Shown: piece by piece, positions 8,523 through 20,556 of the stretch | Layout: each line of letters begins with the position of its first letter | Position numbering within the stretch: position 1 is the first letter of the stretch | Source of the DNA: Actinomycetota bacterium | GTDB taxonomy: Bacteria > Actinomycetota > Coriobacteriia > Anaerosomatales > JAUXNU01 | DNA: 46,588 nucleotides | NCBI GenBank assembly: GCA_030682655.1 | Contig: JAUXNU010000032.1 | Span: 1-46,588 of the forward strand | Direction: 5' to 3' | The notes under the pieces: generated by a model | What the model was told of the DNA's origin: nothing | Seen by the model: the letters and a program-made list of their open reading frames with translations, nothing else | Database searches by the model: none | Translations under genes and position numbers: made by a program

Positions 8523-9635
8523 CTACGCCAGCCGCTCCAAGACGGCATCTCCCATGGCCGATGTGCCGAGCACCCTGTCCGGCGGAATGTCCTGGCCCGC
8601 GATGTCACGCGTGCGCCACCCGTCGTCGAGCACTCTCTCGATTGCGGCAGCCAGCCCGTCGGCAGCATCGTCCATGAAGAAGCTGTAGCGCAGCATGAGC
8701 TCGACGGACAGCAGCATCGCGAGCGGGTTCGCGACCCCTTGCCCTGCGATATCCGGCGCCGAGCCGTGACTCGGTTCGTAGAGTGCCGTGCTGTCGCCGA
8801 GCGACGCACTCGCGAGCATGCCGAGCGAGCCCGCGAGCATGCTGGCCTCATCGGACAGGATGTCGCCGAACATGTTCTCGGTGACCATGACGTCGTACTG
8901 CGCGGGATTGCGAATGAGCTGCATCGCGCTATTGTCCACGAGCTGGTCGACAAGCTCCACGTCCGCGAAATCGGTTTCGTGCAGCCGATGAACGACCTCG
9001 CGCCACAGCCTGGAACTCTCGAGCACGTTGGCCTTGTCGACCGAGTGGACGCGGTTCCCGCGACCCCGTGCGGCCTCAAAGGCCACACGTGCGATGCGCT
9101 CGATCTCGAACTCGCGATACTCCATCGTGTCGTACGCCCGCATGCCCGGGCCGCCACCGACGGCTGCTCCCGGCACGTCACGCTCGCGAGCGCGGTCGCC
9201 AAAGTACAGCCCGCCGGTCAACTCGCGCACGATGAGCATGTCGACGCCCTCGAGGAACTCGGGCTTGAGGCTGCTCGCGTCGCGCAGAGCCGGGAATATC
9301 CTCACAGGCCGTAGGTTCGCGTACAGCTCGAGTGACTTGCGCATGCCAAGGAGCCCCTGCTCCGGACGAGGTTTGTCCGGGTCGGTCGTGTCCCACTTCG
9401 GCCCTCCGATAGCCGCAAGCAGCACGGCATCGGCGCGTTTGGCCACGCGAAGTGTCTCCTCAGGCAGCGGTGAGCCAGTCTCGTCTATAGCCACTCCGCC
9501 AAGGAGCGCGCGCTCGTACTCGAACGCAACACCGTGACGTGCGCCGAGAACGTCGAGCACCTTGACCGCCTCGGCCGTGATCTCGGGACCGATGCCGTCA
9601 CCGGGTATGAGACATATGCGCAAGGGGCCCGTCAC
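8523..9635 (-). CDS. leuB: 3-isopropylmalate dehydrogenase
   Basis: A 370-residue NAD-dependent oxidative decarboxylase of leucine synthesis. [13 protein letters not shown]-type N-terminus, the substrate motif [10 protein letters not shown], and the NAD signature HGSAPDIAG with Asp-Ile at the cofactor-selecting positions are all present. It lacks the S-x-N motif seen in the paralogue at 36.1 kb, so the two are functionally distinct. The GTG start overlaps the leuD stop as GTGA, so the two genes are translationally coupled. Confidence 0.95.
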
Positions 9636-10126
9636 GTGCCCACCTTCTCCTTCACGGACTCGATGAGCCCGCCTTTCTCGATGATGTCCTTGATGAACGG
9701 CGGGAAGGGCTGTGCCCGGAAGGTCTCGCCGGTGGTCTCGTTCACGATCACGCCCTGGTCGGCGTCGACCGTGACGGTGTCACCGTCGCCGATGCCGTCG
9801 ACCGCTTCGGGCGCCTCCATGATCGGCAACCCGGTGTTGATGGCGTTGCGGTAGAAGATGCGCGCGAAGCTCTTGGCGATGATGACGCTTACGCCGACCG
9901 CCTTGATCGCAATGGGTGCGTGCTCGCGGCTCGACCCGCAGCCGAAGTTCTCCTCGGCCACCAGGATGTCACCGAACTCGACTTTGGAAACGAATCCGGC
10001 GTCGAGATCCTCCATGCAGTGCTTGGCCAGCTCCTCGGGCACGCTGGTATTCAGGTAGCGGGCCGGAATAATGACGTCCGTATCGACATCGCGGCCGTAC
10101 TTGTGGGCCGTACCCTGGAACTTCAT
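9632..10126 (-). CDS. leuD: 3-isopropylmalate dehydratase small subunit
   Basis: A 164-residue swivel-domain subunit that pairs with LeuC to isomerise 2- to 3-isopropylmalate, and probably citramalate to methylmalate for isoleucine. Motifs are [32 protein letters not shown] and [14 protein letters not shown]. The substrate-loop residues after the arginine (YLNT) differ from the second small subunit at 38.6 kb (YKFK). leuD opens a two-gene leuDB unit about 9 kb downstream of leuC, with the cytochrome island in between. Confidence 0.94.
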
Positions 10127-10320: not shown

Positions 10321-10914
10321 CTAATCGGAGCCGGCAGTGCCGGTCTCTGTACTCGATTCCCCAACGGGCTCCGGTGGGCGCAGAGCGTCCCACGGCTGGT
10401 CCATGAGGCTGACATCCACCCAGAAAACCTGGATGTCGCGGCCATCGATGACACCAGTGTCCTTGCCCTCGACCGTGAACCGCACCATTTCGACTTCGGG
10501 GAACTGTCCTAGGGTCATAAGAATGGCTGCGTAGGCCAGTCTCTTCTCGGCCGGTTCAGCGTCGAATGCGAGAACGTCGCCTGCCCAGTCGAGAGTCACC
10601 ACGCCCGTGGATTCGTCCATCGAGAACGACAGAAGTTCTGCGGTCGTCTGCACGATCGCGATGTCACGATTGACCGTAGGAGCGGACTTGAGCATCTCTC
10701 TCACGGTCTCCTCGATGGCATTCGTCGCATCCACGCGCACCGGCTCAGAGACGAGCGAGCGTCCGGTGGAGAAGAACACGGCCGTGCTCGTGGTCTCCGT
10801 CGGCAGGTCCTTCGGATCGGGAATGCCCGGCGAACCGGAGTTGCACCCTGCAGACAGCAGCAACAGGGCAGCGCTCACGAGGGCCGCCAGGCCGATCGCG
10901 AAGCGCCTAGACAT
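10321..10914 (-). CDS. GerMN-domain lipoprotein
   Basis: A 197-residue protein with a lipoprotein signal (hydrophobic run ending LLLLSAGC, Cys near residue 24) and a GerMN-like domain over about residues 45-175. GerMN domains occur in spore germination proteins and in many actinobacterial lipoproteins of unknown role, so no sporulation role is implied. The ATG at 10914 overlaps the end of the NHL gene by 8 bp. It is the last gene of the cytochrome island and is expected on the outer face of the membrane. Confidence 0.82.
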   Translation of the reverse strand: MSRRFAIGLAALVSAALLLLSAGCNSGSPGIPDPKDLPTETTSTAVFFSTGRSLVSEPVRVDATNAIEETVREMLKSAPTVNRDIAIVQTTAELLSFSMDESTGVVTLDWAGDVLAFDAEPAEKRLAYAAILMTLGQFPEVEMVRFTVEGKDTGVIDGRDIQVFWVDVSLMDQPWDALRPPEPVGESSTETGTAGSD

Positions 10915-12418
10915 CCGAATCACCAGACCCGTCGTCGAAACCCGAGTCGTCGGCTGTCGGGGTCTCACTGGCAGCCTTGTCGTCCTCGCGAAGGCTTTCG
11001 ATCATCTCGTCGTAGGACAACGTCACAAGACCAAGCTCGCGGCCGGCGGCCATTAGCGCCTCGTCATTGGCGAGAAGCACGCGCTTGCCGCGAGTGTCCG
11101 TCGCAAGGACCAGCGCTTCCGCCTCTGGCACAGCCAGGCCGAAGCGCTCGGCAACCGTCGCCGTCCGGTCCTCGGCCACCTTCTTGGGTTTCAGTTCGAG
11201 CCCACGATTCTCAGAATCCTTCGCAAGGCCGACGACGAAAGGCTCCGCGGCAAGAGCCGCGCCGATTGCCTTGGCAAGCGTTGTGCCATCGGCCTCATCG
11301 GCAGACAGACGGGTGAAGAACGCCGGGGACAGGATGTAGCGCGGCTTGCGGCGCAGGAGGAAGAGGAAGGGCAGCGGCACGAGGAGCAGCAGCCCGAGCC
11401 ACGGCACCAGCGGGGCCCACGCGTTGCCGCCAAGCGACGTCGGTACAGAGAAGACCTCGACGCGGTCGTTGTACTTGTCGGCGATAACGAGCCTGCCGTC
11501 GCCGTAGTCGATGCCGTCGGGATAGTAGAACTTGCCATCGTCGTGACCGACATCGCCGATCTTCTCGATACGCTCGCCGGTCTCCGCCTCCAGGATGACG
11601 AGCTCACTGTTCAGCCCGTCAACGACGTACAGATAGCCGTTCTCGTCGATCGTTATGCTCGCAGGCAGGCCGAATATCTGGCCACTGTCCTGGGTCATGT
11701 TCTGAGTCGCACCTTCTGGAAGGGGCTGGCCGTACTGCCAGATGGGCTGGCCATCGGTACCGATAGCCTGAATGCGGTAGTTCAGCGAATCGGCAACGTA
11801 GAGGGTACCGTCCTCGCCTACAGCGACCGCCCCCGGGCGATCGAACTCGCCCGGCTGCTTGCCGCGCTTGATGTAGCCGGTCTCGAGATTGCCGTCCAGA
11901 TCAGCGATGAGCACGCCGGACTCGGTGGTCACGAACAGCTGGTCGTTCGCGACGCGTGCCGACAAGGGGTACTCCTCGAGCGTTACCGCTTTGATCGGCT
12001 GGTTCTGGGCGTCGAACAACACGATCTTCTTCTTGGACTTCTCGACGACGTACGAACGCCCGTCAGGCGCTACAGCGACACCCAGGGGCTCCCAGATGTC
12101 GGTCTCACCTTCGCCGACGTTTCCGTATGTGGTGACAAAGTTGCCCTCGGCGTCAAAGACCACGATGCGCTTCTTGCCGGTGTCGGCAACGTAGATGTTG
12201 CCGTTGGGCGCAACGGCCACAGAGCTCGGCCTGCGAAGAAGATCGCCCTCGAAACCGTAGATCGAGAAGAGGAAGTTGCGGTCTTGCTCGCCCTCACCGC
12301 GCACCTGTGCCGGCTTCGACAACGTGTAGTAGAACGCCGCCACTGCGCCGAAGAGGAGGAGCAGAACGAGCGTGACAATCACGCTCTTGACCATGGAACC
12401 CGTTGAAGTGCGTGCCAC
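10907..12418 (-). CDS. NHL-repeat beta-propeller membrane protein
   Basis: A 503-residue protein. A membrane helix at about residues 9-30 is followed by repeated NHL-type blades (for example PSSVAVAPNGNIYVADTGKK and GAVAVGEDGTLYVADSLNYR) to about residue 335. A second hydrophobic segment (LVPWLGLLLLVPLPFLFLL) follows, then a cytoplasmic tail of about 130 residues. The GTG start at 12418 follows GAGGAGG by 8 nt, 18 bp after the TPR gene. The propeller would face outward and may be a docking or scaffold surface for the cytochromes; that role is inferred from context. Confidence 0.82.
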   Translation of the reverse strand: MARTSTGSMVKSVIVTLVLLLLFGAVAAFYYTLSKPAQVRGEGEQDRNFLFSIYGFEGDLLRRPSSVAVAPNGNIYVADTGKKRIVVFDAEGNFVTTYGNVGEGETDIWEPLGVAVAPDGRSYVVEKSKKKIVLFDAQNQPIKAVTLEEYPLSARVANDQLFVTTESGVLIADLDGNLETGYIKRGKQPGEFDRPGAVAVGEDGTLYVADSLNYRIQAIGTDGQPIWQYGQPLPEGATQNMTQDSGQIFGLPASITIDENGYLYVVDGLNSELVILEAETGERIEKIGDVGHDDGKFYYPDGIDYGDGRLVIADKYNDRVEVFSVPTSLGGNAWAPLVPWLGLLLLVPLPFLFLLRRKPRYILSPAFFTRLSADEADGTTLAKAIGAALAAEPFVVGLAKDSENRGLELKPKKVAEDRTATVAERFGLAVPEAEALVLATDTRGKRVLLANDEALMAAGRELGLVTLSYDEMIESLREDDKAASETPTADDSGFDDGSGDSDV

Positions 12419-12435
12419 TGACGTAACCTCCTCGG

Positions 12436-13152
12436 CTACTTGTCGCCAGGAGCGGGCGTCGAGGTGTCCTCGATGCCATAGAGCTCCTGGAGCTTCTTGA
12501 ATACGTCGGGATGATCCTTCTTCAGACGGTTGAAGGACGCGAGTGCCGGTTCGTAGTTCGGCACGTACTCGAGCGCGGAAGCGTAGTCGTCCATCGCGTT
12601 CTGCCAATCCTCCATGCGTTCGTAGAGCTGGCCGCGCTCGTTGAGGAGCACGACGTTCTCGGGTCCGTTGTTCACCGCCTTGGTCATCGAGAAGAGAGCC
12701 TTCTCGTCGTTGCCGTCCTTCTCATGTGCCCGTGACAGCGCTAACCAGGCATCCTGGTAGAACCCGGCGAGCTGGCCTTCGGTCTCAACGGCCTTCGACA
12801 GGGACTTGATCGCGTCGGATGTACGTCCGAGATCTGCTTCGGCCAGACCCTTCATGTAGTAGCCGGTGGGGTCTTCGGGGTCGAGCCGCACGGCGATGTC
12901 CGCCTGCTCGAAAGCACCGGTGAGATTGCCTCTTTCGAGGTACGCAGCCGCAAGCTTGATGCGCGCGGTCGGGTCCTCAGGATTGGCTTTCACGGCCTCC
13001 TCGGCGGTGAGCAGCGCACGCTCGAGCTCGGTCGTGGGCGTTGAGGGATCGGTGGTTAGAACCCGGTACGCCACCCCGCCCAGCCCAAGGACGATGCCAA
13101 CGATCAGCACGATGTTGACGATACGAAGGACCTTTGAGGTTGATATCGACAT
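12436..13152 (-). CDS. Membrane-anchored TPR protein
   Basis: A 238-residue protein with one N-terminal membrane helix (about residues 9-31) and tetratricopeptide repeats covering about 40-215, e.g. PTARIKLAAAYLERGNLTGA and PTGYYMKGLAEADLGRTSDA. The arrangement resembles TPR subunits of c-type cytochrome assembly machines (CcmI/NrfG type), but the similarity is architectural only. The ATG at 13152 follows AAAGGTGATAG. It lies between two small anchored proteins and the NHL propeller in the cytochrome island. Confidence 0.8.
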   Translation of the reverse strand: MSISTSKVLRIVNIVLIVGIVLGLGGVAYRVLTTDPSTPTTELERALLTAEEAVKANPEDPTARIKLAAAYLERGNLTGAFEQADIAVRLDPEDPTGYYMKGLAEADLGRTSDAIKSLSKAVETEGQLAGFYQDAWLALSRAHEKDGNDEKALFSMTKAVNNGPENVVLLNERGQLYERMEDWQNAMDDYASALEYVPNYEPALASFNRLKKDHPDVFKKLQELYGIEDTSTPAPGDK

Positions 13153-13204
13153 CAACTATCACCTTTCACGAACGTCGTGCGCCCCCCGAAGGGGTCGCCG
13201 TCAC

Positions 13205-13747
13205 CTACTGCAGCACGTCGCTGCCGGCAATGATGCGGACGAGGAGCCATTTCCCTTCGAACTCCACCGCGCCGATCGTCATCTCTGTGTCCTTACCCGT
13301 GGGCTCGGAGAGTCTGGAGCCGTCGGCCGCCTGGAAGTACGAGCGGTCGATGAACCGGTACTTGATGCTTACCTCGCGCCCGTCAGGAGTCATCTCCATG
13401 ACGTCCATACTCGCGTCCTCGTGTGCGCGCACCCGCTTCTTGCCGTCGGTGCGATACGAGTCGTCTTGCTTCTTGAAGTAGTCGTACTGGTCGTCGGCGA
13501 AATACTCGCGCATGCCGTCGATGTCGTCTCTCAGCCAGACATCGATACCGGCCTGCGTAGCGCGCAGTGCATCGCGCCGGATCTCACCGCGCTCGATCGG
13601 AGTGATCGTCGATGTGTCTTCGGTCGAGGGGGTCTGCTCGAGCACGGTGGTCTGTCGCGAGTCGCTGCGACATGCAGTCGTCGACAGAGCGACTCCCGCA
13701 AGGAGGCCGACAAGGACAAGCGCTGCTATCGATGGACGGTTCCTCAT
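13205..13747 (-). CDS. Exported hypothetical protein (possible lipoprotein)
   Basis: A 180-residue protein with a signal segment ending STTAC (weak lipobox) and a soluble domain rich in Asp, Glu and Arg. The domain has alternating strands near the C-terminus (EVSIKYRFIDRSYF, IGAVEFEGKWLLVRII), a pattern like a small NTF2/SnoaL-like or DUF fold; I do not recognise the family. The ATG at 13747 lies just after the upstream stop (TAG at 13753-13755), so the two genes are coupled. Confidence 0.7.
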   Translation of the reverse strand: MRNRPSIAALVLVGLLAGVALSTTACRSDSRQTTVLEQTPSTEDTSTITPIERGEIRRDALRATQAGIDVWLRDDIDGMREYFADDQYDYFKKQDDSYRTDGKKRVRAHEDASMDVMEMTPDGREVSIKYRFIDRSYFQAADGSRLSEPTGKDTEMTIGAVEFEGKWLLVRIIAGSDVLQ

Positions 13748-13752
13748 CACGG

Positions 13753-14160
13753 CTACTTATACACCTCAAGTCCCACGATCTTGACGGTTGCGGTACGCGC
13801 ATCGCCAAGAGTGCCCGCATTGGCATCGAAGCTCTTGCGCGTGCCCCCGGGGACGCCGCGAACCTCGTACTTCACGAGTTCGCGCTTGTCCTCTTTCTCG
13901 TACAGCTGGATCTCGAGCGAAACAGAGGCGATGTCTTGGGCACCAAGGTTGTCAACATAGCCGGGGATGCGGGCCACACCGTAGTCGTCCTTGTAGGGGT
14001 TGCGGACGAACACGCGGGCGGTATCGTTCATCAGCTTCTCGTCGGTGATCGCCGTGGTTCCGCGAAGCTCCTTGACGGCCTCCGGCCTCACCACGAGGTA
14101 GGCGGCGCCTGCTCCGAACACGACCATCAGGGCAACGAGCACAATGTAGATTCTTCGCAT
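13753..14160 (-). CDS. Small membrane-anchored protein with FxLYD-like domain
   Basis: A 135-residue protein with an N-terminal membrane helix (about residues 4-24). The beta-rich domain reads VARIPGYVDNLGAQDIASV and then SLEIQLYEKEDK, which matches the pattern of extracytoplasmic FxLYD-type domains. It is the first gene after a 113-bp gap that contains an 18-bp palindrome, so it may head a sub-operon running to the GerMN gene. Function unknown. Confidence 0.7.
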   Translation of the reverse strand: MRRIYIVLVALMVVFGAGAAYLVVRPEAVKELRGTTAITDEKLMNDTARVFVRNPYKDDYGVARIPGYVDNLGAQDIASVSLEIQLYEKEDKRELVKYEVRGVPGGTRKSFDANAGTLGDARTATVKIVGLEVYK

Positions 14161-14190
14161 GTGGCCTTTTCCTCCGTCTTGAGCGGTCTG

Positions 14191-14217
14191 CTGGTCTACC
14201 AGCGGATTAATCCGCTG
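14191..14217. promoter_or_regulatory. Overlapping palindromes in the gap of the cytochrome island
   Basis: Positions 14200-14217 are a perfect 18-bp palindrome (CAGCGGATTAATCCGCTG). It shares bases with a second inverted repeat at 14191-14202 (CTGGTCTACCAG). On the minus strand TTGACT lies just upstream of the palindrome. No T-run follows on either strand, so an operator is more likely than a terminator. Confidence 0.45.
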
Positions 14218-14273
14218 TTAAGTCAAGCGACCACAGGTCTAACAACAAATCTCGTACCAAGAGGCCCGCATCC

Positions 14274-15500
14274 CTAATAGTCGAGGAGCGGGTCTGCGGG
14301 CGCCTCGTACCCGGGGGTTGCGGGCGCCAGTGGATTCGGGGCATAGCGCTCCCGGTACGACGGCGGATGACAGGAGTCGCAAAGCGTCTGCGTGTGACAC
14401 GAGAAGCATGCCGCGTTGACACCGCTGCGCTGGCCCGATGCCTCGAGCCCGTGCTCCCGGACCCACACTTCTCCACCGTGCACCGTACCGAAGAGCCCGT
14501 GGCACGAGCACGCCTCATCGGCCGGCTGGAAGGGCTTGCCCTCGGCGAAGTGGCAACGCCAGCAGACATCGCGCTTCACGAACCCATCGCGAGCATGGCC
14601 GAGACCGCCGCCTCCGGGCTCGTCCGGAGACCACCCGGGGGGATGAGGCATGCGGACACCGTGGCAGCTCAGACAGGGCTTCTCGTTGTGGCAGCGATAG
14701 CACACGTCCCAGGCGCTCGAGACTTTGAGCTTGCTGTAGCCCCTGCCGGTGTCCGGGCGCAGCGCGCTGTCCTTGATGTGGCAGGTCTCGCAATCCGAGG
14801 GCGCCCGTGAGCCGTCATGGCACGTCACGCAGTAGTCCATCGATGGCTTGGACGGCTCGATCGCGACACCGGGATGGGACACGGAGTTGTGGCAGTCTCG
14901 ACAGGCCGCGCCGGTCTCAAGGACATCGCTGTGGCGCATGCGAATGCCCCGCGACTCGATAACCCCGGAGCGCACCTGTCCGTGGCAGCGCAAGCAGGCA
15001 CCGGAGTCAACGCTGCCCGGATCAGGCTCGGGCTCGCTCTTGGTGATCCCGTAGGTTGCGAGCCATCGCACGTAGGTGACGTTCTGCCGCACCGTTCCGA
15101 GAGCCCCTGCCGGAGTGTGGCATCGCATGCACGCGACTGCCGCATGCGCCGTCTCGCCCAGCGAGTCGCTGTATACACTCCCGCCATGACACTGGGCGCA
15201 GGTGGCCGGACGCGCCATGTAGACGTTCGCCGCGAAGACCGCAGCCAAGAGGATCAGCGGCACGGATATCCTGGCCACCCAGACCGTCGCGTCATCGCCC
15301 GTCACGACCGCGGTCTGAGCGCGATCCTGGAGAAGCGACCTCAGCTTGCCGCTTGGTGTGTTCCGCTGCGCGAGCCACAGGACCACACCGACCGTTGCCA
15401 GCACGACCGCGACGATGACCAGCAGTAGCATAAGCTGACCGGATCCGCCGCCGGCGATCAGGCCGTCTCTCAAACGCGCGATGACCTCGGACAGGCGCAT
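14274..15500 (-). CDS. Membrane-anchored multiheme c-type cytochrome (11 CXXCH plus one CXCH)
   Basis: A 408-residue protein with two N-terminal membrane helices (about residues 21-45 and 74-95). Eleven CXXCH sites follow: CAQCH, CMRCH, CLRCH, CRDCH, CVTCH, CETCH, CYRCH, CLSCH, CWRCH, CFSCH and CDSCH. A further site reads A-C-S-C-H, a contracted CXCH. The first heme site lies right after a helix, as in NapC/NirT-type quinol oxidases. The ATG at 15500 directly follows the stop of the 12-heme cytochrome. It shares a CHGxxMPHP module with that neighbour. Likely role: electron transfer from the membrane outward. Confidence 0.92.
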   Translation of the reverse strand: MRLSEVIARLRDGLIAGGGSGQLMLLLVIVAVVLATVGVVLWLAQRNTPSGKLRSLLQDRAQTAVVTGDDATVWVARISVPLILLAAVFAANVYMARPATCAQCHGGSVYSDSLGETAHAAVACMRCHTPAGALGTVRQNVTYVRWLATYGITKSEPEPDPGSVDSGACLRCHGQVRSGVIESRGIRMRHSDVLETGAACRDCHNSVSHPGVAIEPSKPSMDYCVTCHDGSRAPSDCETCHIKDSALRPDTGRGYSKLKVSSAWDVCYRCHNEKPCLSCHGVRMPHPPGWSPDEPGGGGLGHARDGFVKRDVCWRCHFAEGKPFQPADEACSCHGLFGTVHGGEVWVREHGLEASGQRSGVNAACFSCHTQTLCDSCHPPSYRERYAPNPLAPATPGYEAPADPLLDY

Positions 15501-16520
15501 CTAGCTCACCGGCCTGTCGCGTAGTTGCTCGATGTAGTCGGGCTTCAGGCCAGGGTGCGCGTGCCGCGTGTGACACTCATCGCATGAGCTCGTGGCATGA
15601 CACCTGTCGCACACCTCGGAGCCATCCTCGGTCACGCTCTTGGAGTGGGCCTGGAGGAAGCCGTCCGGGTGAGGCATAGGCAGCCCGTGACAGTCGTCGC
15701 AAACACGGCCCTTGTGGCAGACCTGGCAAGACGTGCGAAGGGCCTCATCGCCTGCCACGAACTTGCCATGCGTCTTCTTGAACGTCGGCGCATGAGGAAT
15801 CGCCATCTGGTGGCAGCGTACACAGTAGTCCGGACGGTGACATGCCTTGCACGTGTCAAGATCTCCCATGCCGTGCGCGCTTTCCCAGTTGGCTCCATGT
15901 GTCACGCGCCAGGGTGTGATCGCCCGATCCTCGCCCTGTCCGGGAGCTCCCGCCACATGACACGTCGCGCAACCCTCGGTCTGACCGGGGTTCGAGTTGT
16001 GACACTGGAGGCAGTCTCCCATCGTGTAGGAACCGAGAGGTGCTACGTCCTCGCGACCGTGCGCCGTGCCGGCATGACACCGGGTGCACGACCACTTTGC
16101 CTCCTCCACCTCGGCATGACTCATGCGGATTCCGGCCGTCGCCGAAACCGTGGTCAGAACGTCCACGTGGCACTCAAGGCAGACATCATTGGAGACGTAG
16201 GTTGCGATCTGGCCGCGTCCGGGAGTGACCGCGGCCGGAAGCATCGAAACGACGGAGAGCCGGCTCTCGATGAGCCCATAGACGCCCGGCTCTACATGGC
16301 ATCTGTCGCAGGCCAGCGACGTGTGTTCGCTCTCCGACAGTGCGGATCGCGCCGACCCGTGGCATAGTCCGCAGTATGTCGGGCTAACCGCGGCTGCGCT
16401 CACGAGCAGTGAGACGGCGACAATCGCGAGGACGACGCCAACCACCATGTACCAGACACGGCTGGCCCGCGCGGCGCGCAACTCGGGGCCGCTCAACCCA
16501 TTGGCCTCACTTGTTATCAA
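15501..16520 (-). CDS. Membrane-anchored dodecaheme c-type cytochrome
   Basis: A 339-residue protein with one N-terminal membrane helix (about residues 22-45) and twelve CXXCH sites: CGLCH, CDRCH, CLECH, CTRCH, CLQCH, CATCH, CKACH, CVRCH, CQVCH, CDDCH, CDRCH and CDECH. The first CXXCH follows the helix closely, as in NapC/NrfH-type quinol dehydrogenases. The start is the TTG at 16520, 11 bp after the upstream stop, with AAAGG about 10 nt before it. No ATG or GTG lies between the upstream stop and the helix in frame. Heme attachment implies an extracytoplasmic location. Confidence 0.9.
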   Translation of the reverse strand: MITSEANGLSGPELRAARASRVWYMVVGVVLAIVAVSLLVSAAAVSPTYCGLCHGSARSALSESEHTSLACDRCHVEPGVYGLIESRLSVVSMLPAAVTPGRGQIATYVSNDVCLECHVDVLTTVSATAGIRMSHAEVEEAKWSCTRCHAGTAHGREDVAPLGSYTMGDCLQCHNSNPGQTEGCATCHVAGAPGQGEDRAITPWRVTHGANWESAHGMGDLDTCKACHRPDYCVRCHQMAIPHAPTFKKTHGKFVAGDEALRTSCQVCHKGRVCDDCHGLPMPHPDGFLQAHSKSVTEDGSEVCDRCHATSSCDECHTRHAHPGLKPDYIEQLRDRPVS

Positions 16521-16534
16521 GATCGTCGGACCTT

Positions 16535-17236
16535 TCAGAACGACAGCCCTTGTTCTCCCGTGCGCTGGAACTTCTCGATGCCCTCGACTGCAGGCAGTCC
16601 CAGGTTGTGAAGGAAGTCCCGCTTGGTGGCCGGGATCTTGTCCTTGAATGCGGAGCGCACGAACACGTAGCTGGATCCCGTCGTCCACCCGGCCGCCCAT
16701 GCGCCTTCGTCAGCCCTGAATCCGGCTTCGACGGTCTTCACCCCCACAAGGAGTGTCTCGGGACGGACCGTGAACTCTGCCATGCGCTCGTCGAGCTTGC
16801 TCTGGGCCTCCGCCGAGGACGGATACGTCTCAACGCGGGCGTACACCGATATCGGGACCTGGATCTCGATGTCCATGTTCAGCGTTACGTAGATAGCCTC
16901 CGCGGCCTGATTGCCCCGTCCGGGAACGGGCTGCCGGGTAATGGTCTCGTAGGAGATGATGCTCGACGGCAGCAGATCAACGGCGGCCGCGTCAACGTCG
17001 AAGTTCAGAGCCAGACCGTCCGAAACGGCTACCTGCCGGGTCGGGTTCGCAGCGAACTGCCCTGGGCGATCGCGAAGCGCGTACCAGTTCACGAGAACGG
17101 CCACCGCCAACGCAAGCAGCACCGCGACACCGAGCCATCTCAGCACTCGCCGGTCGGTGCGCAGCGGATCACGGGGGGACTCAGGTGTGGCGGCCGTGGA
17201 TCGCGCCGGTTCTGGCTGTACTGTCTCGTCCTGCAT
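16535..17236 (-). CDS. Membrane-anchored hypothetical protein of the cytochrome island
   Basis: A 233-residue protein with a Pro/Glu/Arg-rich cytoplasmic N-terminus, one membrane helix at about 37-57 (LGVAVLLALAVAVLVNWYAL), and a beta-rich outer domain of about 165 residues without CXXCH. I do not recognise the family. The ATG at 17236 follows GGAGA by 7 nt; an in-frame GTG at 17257 has no comparable site. Translation start falls after a 17-bp inverted repeat (about 17319-17335, CATAAC arms). It is followed by the two membrane cytochromes. Confidence 0.72.
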   Translation of the reverse strand: MQDETVQPEPARSTAATPESPRDPLRTDRRVLRWLGVAVLLALAVAVLVNWYALRDRPGQFAANPTRQVAVSDGLALNFDVDAAAVDLLPSSIISYETITRQPVPGRGNQAAEAIYVTLNMDIEIQVPISVYARVETYPSSAEAQSKLDERMAEFTVRPETLLVGVKTVEAGFRADEGAWAAGWTTGSSYVFVRSAFKDKIPATKRDFLHNLGLPAVEGIEKFQRTGEQGLSF

Positions 17237-17349
17237 CTGAAGGTCTCCGAAGATCACTGTCCATCTCGCTCATCTTATAGCAAGGGACGTTCCACCTCGC
17301 CAGGGCACACAAACCCCACATAACCTGCTGTTATGGACCCGAAGAAGAT

Positions 17350-17383
17350 GAGGCAGAGCCCCTCCGGAGAGGGACCCTGCCTC
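17350..17383 (-). terminator. Rho-independent terminator after the heptaheme cytochrome
   Basis: A 7-bp outer stem (GAGGCAG/CTGCCTC) with an inner CCCTC/GAGGG stem is followed on the minus strand by ATCTTCTTC. It lies 29 bp after the heptaheme gene's stop. The abundant secreted cytochrome may therefore be expressed separately from the membrane components downstream. Confidence 0.75.
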
Positions 17384-17412
17384 GTTTGAGCCAGAAGCTC
17401 ACTCGATCAAGA

Positions 17413-18993
17413 CTAGTGGTTGACGCCGATGCCGGGGTGGCAGCGGAGGCAGACCTGGTCGAGGGTCGTGGGGGTGATGGTCGCCGCGTTGTACCGCGGG
17501 GTCCAGCCACCGGTCGCGCTAGTGTTGCTGACGTTGTACGAACCCAGCAGCTTGATGTCGGTAGCGGCACCAGAGTGCGGGAAGTCGAGCTTCTCGGCGT
17601 ATGTCGAGGTGCGCTCCTGGTAGTAGTCCGACGTGCCGTAGTGGCACTGCGTGCAGGACTCACGACCAACGTACATGGCGGCGCGACGTGCAACGCCACC
17701 GATGGTCGAGGAGGTCGGGTCGCTTGCTGCAGCGAGGCCCATCTGCGGTGCAAGGTTGTTGCGGTGGCAGCTGTAGCACTGGCCCGGACCGGTGTAGGCA
17801 CCATAGAACGGAGCCGGGTGGGTGCGCTCGGTGTGAGCCTTGAAGCCGAGTTCGGGATCCGTGAGCGGCTCCCATCCACCGATGTTGAGGTTGTGGCAGT
17901 CGGCGCACCACCAGGACACGGCCATGGTGTTGACCTTGTTCGGGTAGCGGTAGATGCCGGTGTCCGCGCCAGAACCCTCGGCGTGGATGTCCTGAGCGAT
18001 CCATACCGGCTGAGAGCGGGTAACGCCGTTCTCCACATAGGTCTTCTCGCCGGACTCCTCCTGGCTGAAGTTCACGCCCGAAGTGGCACTGTCTTCGATG
18101 GCCTTCACGACCTGGTTGGCGCCCCAGTACTCGGTGGGATCGCTAGCGCTCGTGAAGTACGGGTTGCCGATGACCGTCGCGGAAGGCGAACGGCGGAGCA
18201 GCTTGTAGCCGTCCGGATCGAACGCGCCATCGACGGCCGTGGCGTAGGTAGCACTCGTGAACGTGCCGAAGACGCGCGGACGCCATACTTCGTTGACGGC
18301 GTTGTGCGGCTGGTGGCAGCTCATGCAGCGAAGGGCCAGCGGACCGATCCGCTGGTAGCCATTACGAGAGGAAGAGTTGACCCCACCTGCGAAGCCGGCA
18401 GGAGCGTTGAAGGACACCGCGGCCTGGCCGTGGTGACGGGCGAAGCGGAACATCTCGTTCTTCTCGGAGTCGTAACCACGAACGTGGATCGTCTCGGTGA
18501 CGGGGTCGCCGTTAGCGTCCGTCGTCGAGAGCACTACCGCCTGAGCCTCCTGAAGGATTGTCGAATCCGGGATCTGCGCCTGGGCGCCGATCGTGTGACC
18601 GTTCATGGTGTAGATGCCATCAACGTTCAGGTCGTAGACAATCTTCGTTGAGTGAGCGGAGCCGATGTGGCAGTACGAGCATGCGTCGTCCTGGCTATCG
18701 GCGCGGAGCAGATAGTACGCACCCTCTGCCCGGTGAACGGCGTGACACACCTTGCACTTGTTGGTCGTGGTGTTGTATCCGCCGTGCGGGTTGACCGAGT
18801 ACGTGGTCTCGCCAGAGTTGTCGAACGCGGCATAACCGCCTTCATACTTGGCGCCAGCGTCATGCAGGTCCTGGTAGCTCCAGGCAGAAGCACCAGTGGC
18901 CGGGTCGATGACGCTCGGTGCGACTGCGAAAGCCGTCGCGGCGAACGCAAAGACAAACGTAGCGACAAGGCCGATCAAGAGAGCCTTCTTCAC
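17413..18993 (-). CDS. Secreted heptaheme c-type cytochrome
   Basis: A 526-residue protein with a classical signal peptide (about residues 1-23, KK followed by a hydrophobic core ending AATAFA) and seven CXXCH sites: CKVCH, CSYCH, CMSCH, CADCH, CYSCH, CTQCH and CLRCH. Heme density is low for the length, and no C-terminal anchor is seen. The CMSCHQPHN site is of the CXXCHxPH type. The GTG at 18993 follows AAAGGAGG by 7 nt. An in-frame ATG at 19038 also has a perfect AAGGAGG. Likely an extracellular electron carrier, possibly a filament subunit; the latter is speculation from size and heme number. Confidence 0.9.
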   Translation of the reverse strand: MKKALLIGLVATFVFAFAATAFAVAPSVIDPATGASAWSYQDLHDAGAKYEGGYAAFDNSGETTYSVNPHGGYNTTTNKCKVCHAVHRAEGAYYLLRADSQDDACSYCHIGSAHSTKIVYDLNVDGIYTMNGHTIGAQAQIPDSTILQEAQAVVLSTTDANGDPVTETIHVRGYDSEKNEMFRFARHHGQAAVSFNAPAGFAGGVNSSSRNGYQRIGPLALRCMSCHQPHNAVNEVWRPRVFGTFTSATYATAVDGAFDPDGYKLLRRSPSATVIGNPYFTSASDPTEYWGANQVVKAIEDSATSGVNFSQEESGEKTYVENGVTRSQPVWIAQDIHAEGSGADTGIYRYPNKVNTMAVSWWCADCHNLNIGGWEPLTDPELGFKAHTERTHPAPFYGAYTGPGQCYSCHRNNLAPQMGLAAASDPTSSTIGGVARRAAMYVGRESCTQCHYGTSDYYQERTSTYAEKLDFPHSGAATDIKLLGSYNVSNTSATGGWTPRYNAATITPTTLDQVCLRCHPGIGVNH

Positions 18994-19063
18994 GTCTCTA
19001 CCTCCTTTGTGAGTTCTGTTTGCGATTATGAGTGACATGTCTGTGCACCTCCTTCCTTGTCAC

Positions 19064-19287: not shown

Positions 19288-20556
19288 CTACGGCAGATCG
19301 GATGGAAGCGCGATGTGCCCCGCCACCGCCGTTGCAGCGGCCACAGCGGGTGATGCGAGATAGACCTCGCTCGTGGGATCGCCCATGCGGCCGACGAAGT
19401 TGCGATTGGTCGTAGCGACCGCGCGTTCGCCCGCCGCGAGGATGCCCATGTGCCCGCCGAGGCATGGACCGCAGGTGGGCGTGGAGATCGCCGCGCCCGC
19501 GTCAAGGAAGATGTCAAACAGCCCCTCGTGCATCGCCTCGCGATAGATGCTCTGGGTCGCGGGGATCACGATCAGGCGCACGCCCTCGTGGACGCGGCGA
19601 CCCTTGAGAACCTCCGCAGCCACACGCAGGTCCTCCAACCGGCCGTTCGTGCAAGATCCGATGACGACCTGGTCGACGGTGATGTCGCGGGCGTCTTCGG
19701 CAGGTCTGGTGTTCGACGGCAGATGCGGGAAGGCCACGGTGGGCTTGATGCTGGCAGCGTCGATCTCGAAGACCTGCGCATAGACCGCGTCGGGATCGGA
19801 CTGGTGGACCTCCCACTGGCGCTGCGCTCGCACCCCGACGTAGTCGGCGGTCACGCCATCGAAGGCGATGATGCCGCTCTTGCCGCCGGCCTCTATGGCC
19901 ATGTTGCAGATGGTCATGCGGCCGTCCATGTCGAGCGCGCGGATCGTGTCGCCCGTGAACTCCATGGCCTGGTACAGCGCTCCGTCCACACCGATCATGC
20001 CGATGATGTGCAGGATGATGTCCTTGGCGGAGACCCAGGGCCCGAGCTCGCCGTTGATCTCGAACTTGAGAGACGCGGGCACCTTGAACCAGGCTTCGCC
20101 GGTCGCCATGCCGGCGGCGGCATCGGTCGAGCCCACACCCGTACCGAACGCGCCGAGTGCGCCGTAGGTGCACGTGTGCGAGTCCGCGCCGATGATGACG
20201 TCACCGGAGACGACGACACCCTGCTCGGGCAGCAGCGCATGCTCCACACCCATGCAGCCGACCTCCCAGTAGTGCGTGATGTCCTGCTCGCGGGCGAAGT
20301 CGCGCATCATCTTGGCCTGTTCGGCGCTCTTGATGTCCTTGTTCGGCGTGTAGTGATCTGGCACGAGCGCGACACGCGATGCGTCCCAGACCTTGTCGAC
20401 GCCGATCTTGCGGAACTCCTTGATGGCGATAGGCGCGGTGACGTCATTTGCGAGCACGATATCGAGCCGGCAGTTGATGAGCTGGCCGGGCTCGACCTCG
20501 TCCAGCCCGGCGTGCGCGGCCAGGATCTTCTCGGTGATCGTCATAGGTCGAGGCAT
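19288..20556 (-). CDS. leuC: 3-isopropylmalate dehydratase large subunit
   Basis: A 422-residue [4Fe-4S] subunit of isopropylmalate isomerase. The N-terminus has [13 protein letters not shown], then the aconitase motif [20 protein letters not shown]. Iron-sulfur cysteines lie in [11 protein letters not shown] and [11 protein letters not shown]. The ATG at 20556 follows AAGGAG by 9 nt, 63 bp after leuA. Its partner leuD is separated from it by the cytochrome island. It may also handle citramalate made by CimA. Confidence 0.94.

Follow-up and report, generated by a model that had tools for sequence, protein, structure and literature searches.

The single-membrane iron reducers Carboxydothermus ferrireducens and Thermincola have secreted multiheme cytochromes, OmhA and SmhC in the former and OcwA in the latter (11, 7 and 9 hemes, respectively), which are described as surface reductases, not wires. 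In Dethiobacter alkaliphilus, gene clusters with NHL and TPR proteins and multiheme cytochromes are reported to hold most of the cytochromes whose levels rise when ferrihydrite or thiosulfate is supplied (PMC10376724). NHL propellers are likewise encoded beside multihemes in the diderm Desulfovibrio ferrophilus (PMC8322314, PMC9769857). The route that cytochromes provide across the Gram-positive wall is of interest here, as is the possible existence of cytochrome nanowires in bacteria with a single membrane. Here, we describe a nine-gene locus on contig JAUXNU010000032.1 of an Actinomycetota bacterium (Coriobacteriia, Anaerosomatales), whose products probably form a single conduit for extracellular electron transfer in a bacterium with one membrane, in which a cytochrome polymer probably lies at the surface. 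The whole stretch analyzed (“the window”) is 46.6 kb long with 64% GC and belongs to a genome of 2.94 Mb in 221 contigs. The nine open reading frames (ORFs; g1 to g9 in Table 1) all lie on the minus strand at 10321-18993, flanked by leuC (19288-20556) and leuD (9632-10126).

Our comparison indicates that the nine genes are a real, conserved and co-inherited unit. Profiles built from seed members of each family were searched in other genomes, most of which are draft metagenome-assembled genomes, and all the evidence presented here is sequence-based. All nine families were found in 11 genomes, the source included (in one of the 11 they are split over two contigs), and seven or eight families in eight further loci, several of which are cut by contig ends. 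Some carriers are recorded as Coriobacteriia, others as Thermoleophilia or Candidatus Aquicultor. The original prediction, made from this DNA alone, had proposed a search for the same gene set in other genomes, and at least six of the nine families indeed occur together in 20 further loci. The unit is rearranged block-wise: g2-g3-g4 are kept together, g7-g8-g9 are usually together, and g5-g6 are often on the opposite strand. In a test of seven families, pairwise divergence was correlated (r 0.60-0.91, a level reached in 0 of 999 permutations), as expected under joint inheritance, and nothing pointed to shuffling. A clear g2 member was seen in 12 of the 248 genomes of the class, nearly all of them heptaheme carriers.

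The ORF list and motif counts reproduced the minus-strand gene set, the coordinates and the heme numbers that had been predicted: the three cytochromes carry 7 (g1), 12 (g3) and 11 (g4) CXXCH motifs, 30 in all, plus a single CXCH, and match cytochrome c7/c3/NrfH-type models in Pfam and NCBIfam. Hydropathy indicated an N-terminal signal or anchor in all nine proteins and placed two membrane segments in the 11-heme and propeller proteins. The GerMN, beta-propeller and TPR identities were borne out by Pfam matches, and the three further exported or anchored proteins said to be of unknown family still have no confident one (240, 181 and 135 amino acids; two weak matches). The g2 protein gave an AlphaFold2 model with a predicted local distance difference test score (pLDDT) of 73, whose fold matches in PDB were weak (best, PknH ectodomain, E=7.4e-3). 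The earlier description of g8 had lacked its second membrane segment and the cytoplasmic domain that follows, which comprises about 120 C-terminal amino acids (window 10907-11140) and is conserved in relatives. A PIN-like identity of this domain, suggested by eye, had only scattered sub-threshold matches (PIN E=0.048, PIN_4 E=0.13) and none in PDB, and the domain is therefore left unassigned.

The secreted heptaheme g1 plausibly works like OmcS of the Geobacter nanowire (PDB 6ef8), although its membership of the OmcS family is not established by homology. Both are secreted multihemes, and they share CxxCHxxH at hemes 1 and 3, GH between hemes 2 and 3, WCxxCH at heme 4 and a final heme at the C-terminus. 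The layout features were picked after inspection of OmcS, with its sequence checked against 6ef8, and of the heptaheme; almost every full-length heptaheme and the majority of the related hexahemes had 5 of 5, compared with 0-2 in unrelated ORFs of 5-10 hemes. Across 27 distinct heptaheme relatives, six histidines outside the motifs were retained in all 27, one in 24 and one in 23, which would be enough for bis-histidine ligation of seven hemes. In contrast to the seven hemes here, OmcS has six; its gene neighbors also differ, and the heptaheme belongs to a presumed single-membrane host without the porin-cytochrome step of the OmcS system. A literature search found no NHL link among OmcS gene neighbors.

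Several observations weigh against a conduit built on such a polymer. Some heptaheme relatives carry six hemes. A profile search of PDB gave no significant match, the best being OmcE (E=0.046), with OmcS absent. The local hhalign likeness to OmcS (95%) was rejected as proof of homology, since a paired-CXXCH control reached 95.6%, and the AlphaFold2 model of the heptaheme (pLDDT 29) was too poor for fold comparison. Moreover, a D. ferrophilus deletion study reports no Fe(III) phenotype for NHL-associated multiheme deletions, the mutants still reducing Fe(III) (PMC9769857). The heptaheme might instead be a monomeric terminal reductase of the wall or surface, or a diffusible cytochrome, like OcwA or OmhA, in a conduit with no polymer. 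Described Gram-positive systems are of that type (PMC7829351), C. ferrireducens OmhA being loosely surface-bound and the secreted heptaheme SmhC abundant with ferric acceptors, and the poor heptaheme model lends polymerization no structural support. We nevertheless regard the monomer as less likely, because the OmcS-like layout, the many dedicated anchored accessory proteins and a conserved hairpin that suggests an excess of the subunit all speak against it.

This hairpin is a near-perfect stem of 12-18 bp shortly after the stop codon of module-heading heptaheme genes, with sequences unrelated between genomes. The 3' ends of the heptaheme genes had a median z of -3.6, while other module junctions were near 0 except for the GerMN end (-1.8), and heptaheme copies outside modules mostly had no hairpin. 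The comparison shows a conserved, predicted transcript boundary; GC-rich operon terminators could give the same appearance. Most transcripts, or mRNA fragments, might end at the hairpin, so that the heptaheme would be made in excess. Together, the OmcS-like motif layout and the conserved post-stop hairpin give indirect support to a wire. A scan for a sigma-70-like promoter found none.

The heptaheme also occurs outside the module. Two paralogs in the source genome (L046, G000:C160, and L047, G000:C173) have aberrant C-termini; one continues into extra heme motifs followed by apparent frameshift sequence, and the other loses its last heme through an apparent frameshift. Wzy_C proteins with TPR, which resemble O-antigen ligases and protein O-glycosyltransferases, recur in or beside Aquicultor-type modules (L105 11607-13544, L118 1342-3099, L119 5083-7080 and L113 2349-4337), and it is possible that they glycosylate the putative wire.

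The anchored cytochromes g3 and g4 are homologous (hhalign 100%, 304 columns). The N-terminal region of g4 resembles NrfH (TIGR03153, E=2.2e-8 over residues 75-209; 34.2 bits, below the curated cut-off of 134.2). Quinol dehydrogenases of the NrfH/NapC type likewise have an N-terminal anchor followed by c-heme motifs; however, they have four hemes and a partner reductase, whereas g3 and g4 have 11-12 hemes and no recognized partner reductase. We infer that menaquinol may pass its electrons to g4, perhaps with the participation of g3, and that the two may form a relay of 23-24 hemes on the extracytoplasmic side of the membrane. At the column of the CXCH motif of g4, 10 of 21 distinct homologs (duplicates removed) have CXCH and the other 11 have CXXCH, with the alignment less sure for the most distant homologs; L033, a close relative, has CKPCH. 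Both cysteines and the histidine are retained, suggesting a functional CX1CH heme site. A literature search found no paper on such a heme motif, although this is a weak sign that none exists.

The host is likely a single-membrane bacterium, as had been proposed. Neither Omp85 nor NrfA (PF02335) was found in the genome, and ResB and futalosine-pathway menaquinone genes, among them one of MqnA/D type, are present. This is consistent with a cell that has one membrane, System II cytochrome maturation and menaquinone. A porin-cytochrome conduit (Mtr/Pcc) requires an outer membrane and a barrel protein, neither of which was recognized here, no barrel candidate being present in the module. The dissimilatory nitrite reductase (Nrf) pathway requires NrfA, which, as stated, the genome-wide search did not find. 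The claim that no reductase for a soluble acceptor accompanies the genes also held, since none was recognized beside about 20 modules.

The direction and the target of electron flow can be read in other ways. An exported relay might feed a soluble reductase, unrecognized or distantly encoded, for sulfur compounds, arsenate or nitrogen oxides. NrfA was the only soluble reductase searched for genome-wide, and Anaerosoma, which reduces sulfur and thiosulfate and not Fe(III), has 18 multihemes (PMC9686372). A dedicated secreted heptaheme suits a soluble target less well, however, and with no reductase recognized beside any module, we consider this the least probable of the readings. The same conduit might also work inward or between cells, taking up electrons from Fe(II), Fe(0) or a partner in syntrophy. 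This reading has a slim chance of being correct: the anatomy is direction-neutral, and NHL and multiheme clusters are linked to corrosion in D. ferrophilus (PMC8322314), but the NrfH-like anchor and Fe(III)-reducing order-mates (PMC9686372) weakly favor outward flow. Among the latter, Parvivirga hydrogeniphila is an obligate Fe(III) reducer that grows on ferrihydrite and has pili-like appendages only with ferrihydrite (PMC9686372).

A smaller core is present elsewhere in the source genome (C137, L058), and further genomes belonging to the order have it too. It consists of a secreted 4-, 6- or 7-heme cytochrome, two anchored cytochromes (one with 12 hemes, the other with 10-12), and TPR and NHL proteins. 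One member of the order, G005, has this core, and the nine-gene set was not found in it. The core in same-order genomes and the lack of a recognized soluble reductase beside the modules argue for an extracellular conduit. The second module of the source genome (L058, G000:C137:1-20000) is simpler, with 14-heme, 11-heme, TPR, NHL, hexaheme, 12-heme and 12-heme genes. Giant multihemes with 14 and 31 CXXCH are encoded near the ResB gene at another locus of this genome (L056, G000:C123).

In the conduit that we propose, electrons from the relay would cross the wall through the heptaheme, which would most likely form an OmcS-like polymer. Together with g2, g5 and g6, the propeller, TPR and GerMN proteins would make up an anchored dock, in which the relay and the wire base are held, and the terminal acceptor is probably insoluble, such as Fe(III) or Mn(IV) oxide, humics or partner cells. 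Our most specific proposal is tentative: the module may be a dedicated nanowire machine of single-membrane Actinomycetota, in which an OmcS-like heptaheme polymer is extruded through the wall from the membrane-bound 23-24-heme relay with its conserved CX1CH heme site, on a GerMN/propeller/TPR dock whose propeller protein has a cytoplasmic domain, the same base serving 4-, 6- or 7-heme wire subunits depending on the lineage.

The features of the locus are collected in Table 1. The g1 gene starts with GTG, an alternative ATG being possible at 19038, and two starts were corrected relative to the longest ORF: that of the 12-heme gene from 16700 to about 16520, and that of the propeller gene from 12607 to about 12394.

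Table 1. Features of the nine-gene locus, in window positions
Feature	Position	Strand	Basis and remarks
g1, secreted heptaheme cytochrome, candidate wire subunit	17413..18993	-	526 aa; 7 CXXCH; signal segment
15-bp hairpin	17350..17383	-	terminator scan; ~30 nt past the heptaheme stop, ahead of g2; -32.9 kcal/mol in 45 nt
g2, single-anchor exported protein, 240 aa, no confident family	16535..17236	-	Pfam/NCBIfam, hydropathy
g3, 12-heme cytochrome, N-terminal membrane anchor, start uncertain	15501..16520	-	12 CXXCH, family-conserved; hydropathy
g4, 11-heme (+CXCH) cytochrome, two N-terminal membrane segments, NrfH-like N-terminus	14274..15500	-	TIGR03153; hydropathy
CXCH motif (CSCH) inside g4	14499..14510	-	motif count
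g5, small anchored FxLYD-like protein, 135 aa	13753..14160	-	NF038353 E=9.5e-4, below cut-off; N-terminal anchor
g6, probable lipoprotein, weakly SnoaL-like, 181 aa	13205..13750	-	SnoaL_2 E=0.005, below cut-off; VALSTTAC near N-terminus
g7, anchored TPR protein	12436..13152	-	TPR_2 E=2.3e-18
g8, NHL beta-propeller between two membrane segments, with C-terminal domain	10907..12394	-	NHL E=7.7e-25
g9, GerMN lipoprotein	10321..10914	-	PF10646 E=1.8e-11; lipobox-like LSAGC

The genes around the module were also inspected. The module or the heptaheme gene lies within or beside leu biosynthesis genes in several genomes (L048, L050, L057, L108, L115 and L120), and in Aquicultor-type genomes a lone heptaheme gene stands ahead of leuA-C-D-B. 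Several Coriobacteriia modules have PadR regulators of about 500 amino acids next to them, in most cases with DUF4388 (L033 7884-9368, L057 6463-7974, L051 14167-15744 and L122 8334-9812).

The module is a recurrent set of defined genes that offers a candidate wire subunit, a putative quinol-side relay and putative assembly proteins. Its lineage is widespread in the subsurface, and some relatives are cultured. The g2 and heptaheme families can serve as markers for locating the module in metagenomes.

The closest described systems share some parts with the module. The Dethiobacter Fe clusters also belong to a Gram-positive bacterium, and each brings together secreted multihemes, quinol-oxidase-type multihemes and proteins with NHL and TPR repeats (PMC10376724). 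The original prediction held that no described Gram-positive system known to its author includes such scaffold and assembly proteins; given the NHL and TPR genes beside multihemes in Dethiobacter, that part of the novelty claim fails. GerMN, FxLYD-like, SnoaL-like and g2 proteins are not among the parts of the Dethiobacter clusters described in the accessible text, which has flavoproteins instead. The D. ferrophilus island (DFE_0448-0465) has multihemes, NHL propellers (six-bladed in the island) and lipoproteins in common with the module, but its host is diderm, and g2, g5, g6 and GerMN are not among the parts listed for it. For OmhA, SmhC and OcwA, no such module has been reported. What distinguishes the present module is therefore GerMN, g2, g5 and g6, the cytoplasmic domain of the propeller protein, the OmcS-like layout of the heptaheme and the hairpin that follows it.

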